A stretch of DNA of 64,000 nt. It comes from Candidatus Adamsella avium. GTDB lineage: Bacteria; Cyanobacteriota; Vampirovibrionia; Gastranaerophilales; CAJFVJ01. Made by a program: the position numbers and the translations under genes. The stretch spans positions 392,441 to 456,440 of the forward strand of contig CAJFVJ010000003.1 in assembly GCA_904420445.1 (NCBI GenBank), written 5' to 3'. The notes below the pieces were generated by a model. The model was given only the letters and a program-made list of their open reading frames with translations. It was not told the DNA's origin and made no database searches. How positions within the stretch are numbered: position 1 is the stretch's first letter; each line of letters begins with the position of its first letter. Of the stretch, positions 12,639-50,758 are shown piece after piece.

Positions 12639-13409
12639 TTAGTCAGGCTTTTTCATATCAACTATCTCTGCTTTGGGCAGATTTACATCGAGGATTATTT
12701 TCCCGCTGAACCAGTCATCAATCTGTTTGTCTGTTATTTGTCCGCTGTCTATTGCTTGCTGCAGTATCATAAACTTTTTGATTGTTGACTCAGAATCAGT
12801 GCAGACATCTGTTTCAAGCACCGCATCCGTGAATGCTGAGGTAGAGAGATGTTCAAAGAGCACATCATTCATCTTTCCAAGCCGGTCAAATGACTCCTGC
12901 AATCGTGGAAACTCAAGAAAATACGGCATAGCAAACGGTCGAATCTTTGGAAGAAATTTTTCATCAAGACCGTTCATTATTTCTATATTTCTTTTCAGTG
13001 TATCTGTATCATTATAATCAAATCCTATGTCCATCAACTCTCTTTTTCCGAGTTTTTTGGAATATCTTTCATCAAGTGATTTGAGTATCGTCAGTCTGTT
13101 TATTACGTTTTCTCTTGATTCAATGAATTCTTCAGGCGTAAAGAATGAAATCTTTGCTCCATTTTGAACAGCTTCTATTTCTTTTTGATATTTATCAATA
13201 AAATGGTCGCATTTTTCTTCTATTGTTTTCAAATTTTTAGGTCTTTGAGGCATATTGATTATCTGAGCACGCCCTATACTCTCAAGAGCATCCTGAGCAC
13301 TTGCTTCGGTTTGTTTTGATTTTTGAGGTTCTTTTTTTATATTTTTTTTGTCGTCATCATTCCCTGAGAAAGAAACTATTTGAGGGAGCGAAATTTTTTG
13401 TATGTTCAT
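12639..13409 (-). CDS. SFSG-tagged helical protein, unknown function
   Basis: The 256-aa protein is not recognised. It begins MNIQKISLPQIVSFSGND; after this the first 60 residues are polar and low in complexity, and the rest is predicted helical and acidic. No signal peptide or membrane segment is seen. AAGGAA 8 bases before the ATG at 13409 fixes the start. The short VSFSG string near the N-terminus also occurs in the proteins at 15042 and 48569, which otherwise share nothing obvious. The gene is the first of a minus-strand group of lineage-specific genes. Confidence 0.75.
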   Translation of the reverse strand: MNIQKISLPQIVSFSGNDDDKKNIKKEPQKSKQTEASAQDALESIGRAQIINMPQRPKNLKTIEEKCDHFIDKYQKEIEAVQNGAKISFFTPEEFIESRENVINRLTILKSLDERYSKKLGKRELMDIGFDYNDTDTLKRNIEIMNGLDEKFLPKIRPFAMPYFLEFPRLQESFDRLGKMNDVLFEHLSTSAFTDAVLETDVCTDSESTIKKFMILQQAIDSGQITDKQIDDWFSGKIILDVNLPKAEIVDMKKPD

Positions 13410-15041: not shown

Positions 15042-15692
15042 TTATTTTTTCATAACTTCAGATAAAATACTTCTAAACTCTTCATTTTTCTTTAATTCTT
15101 TAAAAAATCCTGCCATTTTTTTTAGTGCATCTATGCCTTCTTGCGTGGATTCAACAGGTTTTTTCATCATATCATCCATAAAATCGAACATATCTAAAAA
15201 AGTTCCCTTCATTTCAAAATCGTCAAATTCAGGGGAAGAAAGTTGTTGCCTCATTGTTTGTATATAGTTTGACATATTCTCCATTGTTTGTTGTTCAGTA
15301 GCAGGATCAATCTTTCCTTTTGTAGTAAGTTGTCTAAAGTATTCCAAACCGTCTTCTCCAACCTGTCTAAGCTGTTTTGCTTCATCCGACAGCTCTTCAG
15401 GGATGTCCTCTGAGTCAATAGATTTTATAATTTTTTTAAAAAAATTCTTTCCGTTGTCAAAAAATTGTGTAATCCCTTTTTGAACTTTTTTTGAAAGTCC
15501 GAGTTCTGATAATGCTTTTTCAAACGGAGTTTTTCTTAGCGGTAATCCGCTAAAAGAAACAGTATCGGCATTTTTTTGAATGCCATAAGAATTTAAATTA
15601 TAGTTGCTTTGGCTTATAGACAAATTGAAGGAGTTCTGAGTTTTATTTCTGCCTGTAGCAGGGTGAGAAAAATTTACCGGAGTAATATACAT
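15042..15692 (-). CDS. SFSG-tagged helical protein, unknown function
   Basis: The 216-aa protein is not recognised. A polar, Asn/Ser-rich N-terminal stretch of about 43 residues ends in DTVSFSG, followed by a mainly helical region with many acidic and Met residues (FLDMFDFMDDMMKK). No signal peptide or TM is seen. AGGAT lies 10 bases before the ATG. It converges with the HD-domain gene (3-base gap) and is followed upstream by the single-TM protein gene at 15721 in the same direction, 28 bases apart, so the two may be co-transcribed. Confidence 0.78.
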   Translation of the reverse strand: MYITPVNFSHPATGRNKTQNSFNLSISQSNYNLNSYGIQKNADTVSFSGLPLRKTPFEKALSELGLSKKVQKGITQFFDNGKNFFKKIIKSIDSEDIPEELSDEAKQLRQVGEDGLEYFRQLTTKGKIDPATEQQTMENMSNYIQTMRQQLSSPEFDDFEMKGTFLDMFDFMDDMMKKPVESTQEGIDALKKMAGFFKELKKNEEFRSILSEVMKK

Positions 15693-48429: not shown

Positions 48430-48438
48430 CCTAAAATC

Positions 48439-48476
48439 AAAGAGAAAGAGGCTGATAAAACAGCCTCTTTCTCTTT
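48439..48476. terminator. Intrinsic terminator
   Basis: A 16-bp perfect stem AAAGAGAAAGAGGCTG with a 6-base loop, behind the acetyltransferase operon. Confidence 0.88.
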
Positions 48477-48568
48477 GGCTGCAATAATTTCCAAAAATAA
48501 AAAAAATCTTATCAATTTTTTTTCATCACATACCTTATATTTATATCCCAATCTCAGAAAGGCAGACT

Positions 48569-50758
48569 ATGAACATATCCCCGATTACAATCTTCTCATT
48601 ACCTCAGCAGAAAAATCCACAAAAAACAGAAAAATATACACTCAAACAACCAGCGCTATCAGATGTCTTTATCCGTTCATCAAAACCGCAAAACACCTCA
48701 TTCTCTGGCAATCAACCCAATCAAATTACTATTGATGAGTTTTATATCTCGGATACGGACAATCAAACATATCAAAAATATATTGACCAGAAACTTGAGA
48801 AACCGGCTCTTCCTTATGCCTATGACGAGCTTCCTCAAGTAATCGGAGCAACAAAAAATATCTTCGGAGAAATCGAAGAGGTTTATAACTACGACCGTGA
48901 CAAACTTCAGAAAAAGGCTGTCTACACAGGTCCTTATGTTCCGACAAAAAAAGATCCGGCAGCCAAAACAATCAACACTGAAGAACTGAAAGATGAATTC
49001 AAAAAAACAAACTCTCTTGACTATACAATTCCAATAGCCAAAAACAGCCACTACAAACCTGAACACTCAAAAAATGCGAACCTTACAAAAGCTCAGGAAC
49101 AATATCTCAACAAAACCTCAAATACTGACCTGACAATACGCTATGGAGCAGCTGTAAACTGGTCTGATTCAAAAATAGCAAGAGATATAATGCAAAATTT
49201 CTACGACGGACACAACAAAACCTTAGAAGGCACTCACCTCAACATACAATACGACCGTACTACAAAAAAATACACGGTAAGAATAGAAGGAAACGGTACA
49301 TATCCCTATGACTTTATACAATATATCGGCAAAGGAACAAAATTTGAAGATGCAAAATCAGCAGGAGGCTTTGGAGAAGGCTCAAAAATCCTCGCCTGCA
49401 ATCTTCTTGCCCGTCAAGACCAAAAAGGCAAATTTTCAACAGACTATGTACAATACTCAAGCGCTGACTGGGAAATTGACCTCACAAGAAGCTCCGATGA
49501 CAAAGACTCAGCTATAATGCAAAGAACACTCACAAAAGTTCCCGAACAAAACGGAAACGCTATCGAGTTTAATACAAGCGATAAAAATCTTGTTCTAAGA
49601 CTTATAGACAGCCTGAACTGGTTTGAAAGCCCTTATAATAAAGATTTTCAAAACCTTGATTTTGACAACGGAATTTTTGGTCTAAAAATTCTCCCTGACA
49701 AAGAAAAAGGAAATCTATACCTCACCCAGAGATTTGAATACGAAGAAAGCGACAGCTGGGATAATTCTATTCAAAATGCTGATTTAATTTTCAGAAAAAA
49801 ACCTGAAGGCTCTATTTTCTCTGTATCAAGAGATAGAACCTACCTGAATGAGTATGATATCGAAAAGATTTCAGAAAATATGGTTGATGAATTTTCTGAT
49901 GATGAAATTCTCGATTTGATAATAAAACTTGACTCTATCTGGAAATCTCCCAAACGTAATGATGCAATGACAAAAATAGCAGCAGCTCTTGCGTCTGAGG
50001 CATCTTCAAGGGAAATAGGAATTGACTTCAAAGACAAAAAATTTGTAGCAGTACCGAAATTTACCGGTGAAAAAGACCTTGAATTTCTCTCACTCCTTGG
50101 TTATACCCCTGTCAATATGGCAATGAGATATCTTGTTCCAACCCTTGAAGAAATTAACACAACAATGAGCACTCATATTCCGGTAGAACCTACCGAAAAT
50201 GAAATTAAAAAAATGATACTCCTCACAGAGGCAACAAAACTCATTCAATCATCAACTTCAAAGCAAATAGGACTAGGTATTTACAAAGCATTTCACGACA
50301 ACATTGCTCCTTATAATGAAGAATATATAATGCAAAGTACTAAAGAAGATCTCCGGTTCTTGAGACAACTCCAAAATCTTCAGAAAGACGCTGTTTTCTC
50401 CGAGTTATTTTCTCGGGACGACTGCGAGCAACCTGTATTTTTATATGACAAAACGAAGGAAGGCAAACTTGATAACTCTGTTGCTCACGCAATAACAGGA
50501 TATGATAAAGAGCTTCAAACAACTATGTACCAGGGTCACTGGATTGATAGAAACTATCTCAACTCAGGAAACTTTTACAAACTGCTTGCAACCTATCTGC
50601 ATGAAATTAACCACCAGCACGGCGGCGACGGTTCATCAGAGTTTACTTATGCTTTGACAGAAGAACTAGGAATAATCCTCTCAATTCTCTCCTCCCAACC
50701 AGAAACAGCGTCAAAGTTGAATATGCTCGCTCAAAAATTCGAGCAAATACCCTCCTAA
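48569..50758 (+). CDS. GHKL-ATPase with C-terminal HExxH motif and SFSG N-terminus
   Basis: The 729-aa protein is not in any family I can name. Its polar N-terminus contains NTSFSG near residue 46. A GHKL (Hsp90/MORC-like) ATP-binding fold follows: DIMQNFYDG with N210, VRIEGNGT (an E in place of the usual D of DxGxG), and AGGFGEGSK (G266-G271). The C-terminal part has LHEINHQHGGDGSSEF with H678, E679 and H682, a zincin-like HExxH. AAGG lies 7 bases before the ATG. It stands alone after the sugar operon. No signal peptide is seen. Confidence 0.82.
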   Translation: MNISPITIFSLPQQKNPQKTEKYTLKQPALSDVFIRSSKPQNTSFSGNQPNQITIDEFYISDTDNQTYQKYIDQKLEKPALPYAYDELPQVIGATKNIFGEIEEVYNYDRDKLQKKAVYTGPYVPTKKDPAAKTINTEELKDEFKKTNSLDYTIPIAKNSHYKPEHSKNANLTKAQEQYLNKTSNTDLTIRYGAAVNWSDSKIARDIMQNFYDGHNKTLEGTHLNIQYDRTTKKYTVRIEGNGTYPYDFIQYIGKGTKFEDAKSAGGFGEGSKILACNLLARQDQKGKFSTDYVQYSSADWEIDLTRSSDDKDSAIMQRTLTKVPEQNGNAIEFNTSDKNLVLRLIDSLNWFESPYNKDFQNLDFDNGIFGLKILPDKEKGNLYLTQRFEYEESDSWDNSIQNADLIFRKKPEGSIFSVSRDRTYLNEYDIEKISENMVDEFSDDEILDLIIKLDSIWKSPKRNDAMTKIAAALASEASSREIGIDFKDKKFVAVPKFTGEKDLEFLSLLGYTPVNMAMRYLVPTLEEINTTMSTHIPVEPTENEIKKMILLTEATKLIQSSTSKQIGLGIYKAFHDNIAPYNEEYIMQSTKEDLRFLRQLQNLQKDAVFSELFSRDDCEQPVFLYDKTKEGKLDNSVAHAITGYDKELQTTMYQGHWIDRNYLNSGNFYKLLATYLHEINHQHGGDGSSEFTYALTEELGIILSILSSQPETASKLNMLAQKFEQIPS

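Follow-up and report, generated by a model that had tools for sequence, protein, structure and literature searches.

What kind of protein joins an Hsp90-like clamp domain to a metalloprotease motif in a single chain, and what might such a protein do in a gut bacterium? The question is raised by a gene of Candidatus Adamsella avium (Gastranaerophilales), which lies in a stretch of 64,000 nucleotides referred to here as the window. An earlier note, made from the DNA letters, had described one 729-residue chain at 48569-50758 with an SFSG leader, N210, GGFGEGSK and LHEINHQHGGD. The reading frame proved exact, all of these elements are present (SFSG at residues 44-47, N210 within RDIMQNFYDG), and the motifs of the GHKL half and of the HExxH end are invariant in 26 relatives. 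An Hsp90 M-like middle domain can be added to the domains named at that time. The reading frame starts with ATG, and the features of the locus are as follows.

48438..48477, no strand assigned: inverted repeat of 17 pairs, lying between the GHKL-zincin gene and the acyltransferase gene upstream of it
48556..48562, plus strand: AGAAAGG, a likely ribosome-binding site separated from the ATG by 6 nt (sequence)
48569..50758, plus strand: whole gene, stop codon included; its 729-aa product combines GHKL, an Hsp90-like middle domain and a zincin in a single chain
48569..48751, plus strand: disordered N-terminal leader, residues 1-61 (AF2 model, pLDDT about 27-40)
48698..48709, plus strand: SFSG motif of the leader, residues 44-47 (sequence)
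49115..49582, plus strand: GHKL (Hsp90 N-terminal-like) domain, residues about 183-338 (AF2, Foldseek, PHROG, hhalign)
49181..49210, plus strand: N-box RDIMQNFYDG, residues 205-214
49283..49297, plus strand: degenerate DxGxG box, I-E-G-N-G, residues 239-243
49364..49384, plus strand: G-box GGFGEGS, residues 266-272
49583..50179, plus strand: Hsp90 middle-domain-like region, residues about 339-537 (AF2, Foldseek, hhalign)
49829..49837, plus strand: R421-D422-R423 motif of the middle domain, common to phage RIIA-like and plasmid relatives
50180..50755, plus strand: zincin-like domain, residues 538-729 (AF2 fragment model, homology to the relatives' zincin)
50600..50644, plus strand: active-site stretch HEINHQHGGDGSSEF, residues 678-692, with H678, E679, H682, the candidate third ligand D687, S/T689 and F692

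The gene is real, because a related Gastranaerophilales genome carries an 85%-identical orthologue in identical gene order and the dN/dS between the two is 0.21. This ratio applies to the whole length and is about 0.21-0.22 in each of the N-terminal, GHKL/middle and zincin thirds; by this measure the entire protein is under purifying selection. The GC content of the gene (0.375) is close to that of the window (0.371), and the Adamsella genome contains one copy. As read from the open reading frames, this solitary gene is flanked by an acyltransferase gene on one side and an Lrp-type regulator gene on the other, within metabolic or housekeeping surroundings that comprise pgi, FdtA-like, acyltransferase, Lrp and aminotransferase genes. 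The inverted repeat at 48438..48477 gives a terminator-like match called on the minus strand only. No adjoining phage genes were found among the open reading frames of the neighbourhood, and comparison of related loci identified no conserved operon partner, the neighbours being common only to very close species.

The 729-aa protein has no match among Pfam, NCBIfam and PADLOC models or PDB sequences; matches to baeRF12 and MBL_MAP1B were rejected as below cut-off and spanning unrelated regions. Relatives are nevertheless numerous within its own lineage. A scan of genome contigs recovered 25 of them, mostly in Gastranaerophilales bins, and matches occur in 60 of the 286 genomes of the order. A phylum-wide sample added one genome outside the order but within the class (G416), encoding a protein of 812 aa that ends HEITHKYGGDETAVF as in the family. 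This sole member found outside the order (locus L041 1-14001) stands in a different context, flanked by proteins read as large AAA-type ATPase-like proteins. In an alignment of 26 modules with a mean column identity of 34%, W198, R205, D206, Q209, N210, F211, G266, G269, E270 and G271 are invariant, as are R421, R423, H678, E679, H682, G685, D687 and F692. The motifs are beyond chance because they are invariant across 26 relatives at so low a mean identity.

Two layouts occur in the lineage. Single modules of about 700-890 aa mostly carry an N-terminal hydrophobic helix, and many of these relatives are probably located at the membrane, since most have this helix; neither the 729-aa protein nor its close orthologue has an N-terminal membrane helix. 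Giants of about 1,200 to 4,400 aa contain the module doubled, with HExxH kept in the first copy and lost in the second, which retains the GHKL signature. The HExxH site is thus under selection where present, because the first module keeps it while the second has lost it. One giant (locus L014 2-8878; 2959 aa, open at the contig start) has two GHKL modules with the zincin in the first, together with an ADP-ribosyltransferase exoenzyme domain (PF03496, E 8.6e-10); another has a weak LysM match. A second HExxH region of a different kind (RHELTHINDKK) lies in the N-terminal part of a further giant (locus L003 1-9357), along with a stretch that resembles RelA/SpoT by eye; neither of these has a Pfam match. 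A Hydrogenedentes fragment (L027) was left out, as all it holds is an N-box stretch followed by a stop.

The leader of the 729-aa protein belongs to a disordered-looking type, 'M-x-I-x-x-I/V ... V/T-x-F-x-G', that is common to unrelated proteins of the lineage. In the window it is borne by the proteins at 12642-13409 (minus strand) and 15045-15692 (minus strand) and by that starting at 48569 (plus strand), and elsewhere in the lineage by those at L049 2121, L046 9733 and L003 9414. Per 1000 positions, the pattern [VIT]xFx[GA] is seen about 2.0 times within the first 60 residues and about 0.9 times farther along, a difference inflated by family homologues. The shared leader might be a sorting or processing signal.

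The C-terminal site follows a zincin pattern, in which HExxH and a loop of variable length precede D-x-[S/T]-x-x-F, the last opening the next helix. H678, E679 and H682 are invariant and lie on a predicted helix (residues 669-684), and the whole arrangement, HExxH...D-x-[ST]-x-x-F, is invariant or almost so in first modules; one of these (locus L015) keeps HExxH and has GSD in place of GGD. D687 is present in all 26 lineage first modules and in all 11 distant zincin-bearing rows, and is a candidate third metal ligand. Glu679 is equally constant (26/26 and 11/11), which argues for catalysis rather than structural zinc, because a structural zinc site would not need this residue. Judged by its residues, the protease site of the 729-aa protein is intact.

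Structure prediction, proposed in the earlier note as a check, was applied to the whole chain and to its C-terminal end. An AlphaFold2 model built from 41 rows has a pLDDT of 77, with a high-confidence core and the leader (residues 1-61) disordered, and Foldseek placed TRAP1/Hsp90 first among PDB structures (prob 1.00, E 9.6e-8), a match that fits the Hsp90/histidine-kinase-like ATPase fold of the GHKL superfamily. Among viral models the best matches were small phage proteins (E 2.5e-13 to 2.5e-10) and RIIA-annotated proteins (KVP40; E 8e-7). Whole-model TM-scores were low, about 0.23-0.28, because the placement of the domains differs. The C-terminal 192 residues modelled separately reached a pLDDT of 85.5; their best PDB folds include selecase, jannalysin, Wss1 and HtpX, all weak (E 0.13 and worse) and among unrelated helical proteins. 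These four are small or minimal zincins, and the modelled fold match alone is only suggestive. Designed TIM barrels in the PDB, matched by the family profile over short stretches, were rejected as chance.

The GHKL half raises the question of nucleotide use. The earlier note had called this half an Hsp90/MORC-like ATPase with E in place of D in the DxGxG motif. The fold is borne out, and motif I (the N-box, E-x-x-x-N) is present with N210 invariant, although Asp206 replaces the relatives' general-base Glu in all lineage rows. The glycine-rich lid of motif III is also present, with G266, G269, E270 and G271 invariant in G-x-F-G-E-G. Motif II is absent as such, the pattern being I/V239-x-G241-x-G/S with G241 kept. 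The assignment of the change to E240 did not hold: when phage and plasmid relatives with an intact DxGxG are aligned to the family, their Asp falls on I239, and E240 is the variable residue after it (S, E, N, T, D or K). Position 239 is Ile in 22 and Val in 4 of the 26 family rows, and one or the other of these in all 41 lineage modules. At the motif-IV position, 25 of the 26 first modules have Asn330 in place of the Thr that 20 of 24 phage and plasmid rows have. Plasmid relatives retain the canonical nucleotide residues, and their loss in the gut branch is a real difference within the family. Binding or use of ATP by that branch is doubtful, since both the adenine-contacting Asp and the motif-IV Thr have been lost, and with it the ATPase activity that the note had assumed.

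That note knew of no family with the order GHKL-middle-zincin, but the architecture is no orphan, since phages and bacterial and haloarchaeal plasmids, besides the order itself, have full-length relatives. With the 729-aa protein as tblastn query nothing was found in phages and plasmids; the distant members were reached via a HExxHxxGGD codon pattern and via the proteins of relatives. The codon-pattern scan of viral contigs, which used no GHKL information, returned 10 stretches, three of which (L060, L063 and L064) encode a GHKL domain followed by a C-terminal zincin motif, while one (L056) repeats a family member already in hand (L028). The order was found in Moorella phage MTATph1 (WPA89660.1) and Exiguobacterium phage vB_EalM-132 (AYP68649.1), and in plasmids of Alkaliphilus, Aneurinibacillus, Streptomyces, Salinibacter (pSR56, WP_231847039.1), Croceicoccus (p2, WP_047824690.1), Euzebya and Priestia. 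Hosts of the plasmid members belong to Bacillota, Actinomycetota, Rhodothermota, Pseudomonadota and haloarchaea, the haloarchaeal copies being about 46% identical to the Croceicoccus protein. The Alkaliphilus protein has three GHKL modules and one zincin. Two or three tandem GHKL modules with one C-terminal zincin were seen in Bacillota plasmid proteins (L068 461-3775 and L069 1889-4765), for which a single-chain clamp is possible from the arrangement. A 115-aa protein of a Citrobacter braakii conjugative plasmid (locus L128 3007-3354) matches the zincin end only, at 44% identity, and is perhaps a remnant or a stand-alone zincin.

Profile comparisons tie these proteins to the gut lineage over their full length. 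A profile of eight phage and plasmid proteins aligned with the family by hhalign at 98.6% (E 6.8e-16, 414 columns), collinear over the whole chain, and the zincin part alone at 96.2% (E 2.8e-9). The phage/plasmid profile, containing no Gastranaerophilales sequences, recovered members of the order from genomes of the phylum at E down to 1.1e-12. On viral contigs it found 36 relatives, 28 of which have HExxH more than 150 residues past the G-box, near the C-terminus; viral scans with two single proteins (L073 and L068) gave no relatives. PHROG 6077, which has no assigned function, matches the GHKL part in 24 of the 26 members (best 3.5e-12). Four small phage RIIA-like proteins from annotated records align over the ATPase and middle domains, RDR included (hhalign 96.7%, E 3.2e-10), and lack the zincin. 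One phage relative has a weak match to TmtA (PADLOC). Where relatives are annotated at all, they are called 'ATP-binding protein' or 'hypothetical protein'; no curated model of a GHKL-zincin fusion was found, nor did the literature that was searched contain a description of one, and the HEF_HK/paraMORC paper treats other GHKL proteins and does not mention a peptidase.

In an unrooted tree of 57 rows on the GHKL and middle domains, the gut lineage makes up one side, with full support. Those small phage proteins that lack the zincin group together (97/95) and adjoin a zincin-bearing phage row (98/99), a placement that fits loss of the zincin in the former, on a tree that is unrooted and has several long branches. 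The sequence comparisons taken together indicate that GHKL-middle-zincin is almost certainly an old, uncurated family of mobile elements, of which the 729-aa protein is a diverged gut-lineage variant.

Some relatives stand beside genes of intergenomic conflict. On Salinibacter plasmid pSR56 (locus L077 3929-5371) the GHKL-zincin gene lies between hsdS and hsdR of a type I restriction system, followed by a gene for a SprT-family metalloprotease, and on a Natrinema zhouii plasmid (locus L126 4980-6374) it is followed by one hypothetical gene and then by Piwi-domain and phospholipase D genes. Both contexts, out of the few that were viewed, would fit conflict biology. Because the ancestry of the protein lies among phage and plasmid proteins, it is more likely to serve in conflict with mobile elements than in housekeeping. 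The link to a conflict system raised by the earlier note is thus plausible as background, given the phage and plasmid relatives, the restriction operon, the Piwi and phospholipase D genes and the giants with ADP-ribosyltransferase.

Hsp90 and MutL are ATP-driven dimeric clamps. In the reading preferred here, which we consider about evenly balanced between true and false, the 729-aa protein would be a clamp-gated metalloprotease. Its N-terminal and middle domains would form a dimeric clamp, as in Hsp90, MutL and VcSduA, and the clamp would close on a presumed target. Closure would present the target to the C-terminal HExxH...D site, or activate that site, which is taken to bind zinc and to be gated in this way, and the captured target would then be cut. 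Because both the DxGxG Asp and the motif-IV Thr have been substituted in the gut branch, its clamp is probably powered in some way other than the usual hydrolysis of ATP. The presence of several GHKL modules in tandem for one zincin (three in the Alkaliphilus protein, two in the giants) would suit an intramolecular clamp. The housekeeping surroundings, the single copy and the lack of a conserved partner or a defence island count against the clamp-gated protease, as do the doubtful binding of ATP, the weak fold match of the zincin fragment, a third zinc ligand that is no more than a candidate, and the low whole-model TM-scores.

The replaced nucleotide residues could also mean that the GHKL half binds no nucleotide, or another ligand, and serves as a fixed scaffold or sensor, with an active zincin regulated by partners or by autoprocessing. 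The Ile or Val in every lineage module and the predominance of Asn at Thr330 speak for such a pseudo-ATPase, and the phage RIIA-like relatives, too, mostly have S, T or N for the Asp; but N210, D206 and the G-box are invariant even in the second modules that have lost the protease site, which points to a pocket that still has a ligand, and we regard a pseudo-ATPase as rather unlikely. In another reading, HExxH...D would hold zinc in a structural or regulatory role within an Hsp90-like chaperone and have no peptidase activity. The persistence of second modules without HExxH and the weak zincin fold match are compatible with such a non-peptidase, which is very improbable against a general-base Glu679 constant in every first module and every distant zincin-bearing row. 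That the protein is an ordinary Hsp90-family (HtpG) chaperone with a chance HExxH is scarcely credible despite Hsp90/TRAP1 heading the PDB fold matches: it has no Pfam HSP90 match, a zincin replaces the dimerisation domain, and the HExxH is invariant in relatives. This conservation and the absent Hsp90 sequence match refute the ordinary chaperone.

Delivery into another cell is a further alternative, in which the protein would be an exported or injected effector and the leader, or the membrane helix of relatives, part of the delivery. The multidomain giants, one with PF03496 and one with the weak LysM match, would accord with it, as would the likeness of the leader to N-termini of unrelated lineage proteins. 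That leader is, however, also found on ordinary-looking proteins, the neighbours are metabolic, neither a signal peptide nor a secretion partner came to light for the 729-aa gene, and a GHKL clamp would normally require a cytoplasmic ligand; we hold an exported effector to be improbable.

A wider, more tentative and on balance unlikely proposal is that the RIIA-type GHKL proteins of phages, plasmids and the gut order are one class of clamp-gated proteases. The zincin would be the clamp's ancestral effector and lost in the small phage RIIA-like proteins, rII counter-defence may descend from a clamp that captured proteins to have them proteolysed, and the gut lineage would have become driven by a ligand rather than by ATP, with doubled copies fused into giant conflict proteins. 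If clamp gating is correct, enzymes whose metalloprotease is gated by an Hsp90-like clamp form a class that has been overlooked across phages, plasmids, bacteria and archaea. It would be tied to the long-unexplained RIIA proteins, making RIIA-type function open to direct biochemical test, and its gut branch would be a GHKL machine without the canonical adenine contact and with its effector intact.

Among named systems, the closest is the plasmid and phage 'ATP-binding protein' family, which is collinear with the 729-aa protein in its GHKL domain, the R(D/E)R of the middle domain and a C-terminal zincin with HExxH...D-x-[ST]-x-x-F. Unlike the gut lineage, most of its members have an intact DxGxG, the motif-IV Thr and Glu at the position of D206; they have one to three GHKL modules, and their single-module forms, at 440-480 aa, lack the N-terminal extension of 180 residues. 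The small phage RIIA-like proteins (PHROG 6077) and T4-type RIIA share the GHKL and middle domains, G-x-F-G-E-G-x-K and RDR, and the small proteins resemble the gut lineage in the missing DxGxG Asp of most; the small ones, as read here, end without a zincin, and the 729-aa gene neither lies in phage surroundings nor has an evident RIIB gene beside it. RIIA orthologues are described as combining GHKL with a variable C-terminal domain and acting in counter-defence (PMC7824862).

The zincin resembles minigluzincins (selecase, jannalysin), Wss1/WLM, SprT-like and DUF6782 proteins in its HExxH helix followed by a second helix, with weak fold and profile matches, all under curated cut-offs; where those families have Glu or His, the third-ligand candidate here is an Asp, located at a loop whose length varies. 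The giants are like the polyvalent proteins of phages and conjugative elements, very large chains with zincin-like metallopeptidases, ADP-ribosyltransferases and other domains (PMC5512222), whereas the 729-aa protein is small, and a search of that paper by term revealed no GHKL module. With Hsp90/TRAP1 (HtpG) it shares the fold and order of the N-terminal and middle domains, and differs in having no match to HSP90 models (Pfam, NCBIfam), a zincin in place of the C-terminal dimerisation domain, and altered nucleotide motifs. VcSduA, the GHKL-Shedu anti-phage nuclease, differs in that its effector is a PD-(D/E)xK nuclease rather than a zincin, and no PADLOC model matches the 729-aa protein; it is alike in carrying a C-terminal effector enzyme on a GHKL clamp, and its authors hypothesise that the clamp controls the C-terminal nuclease (PMC12137116).
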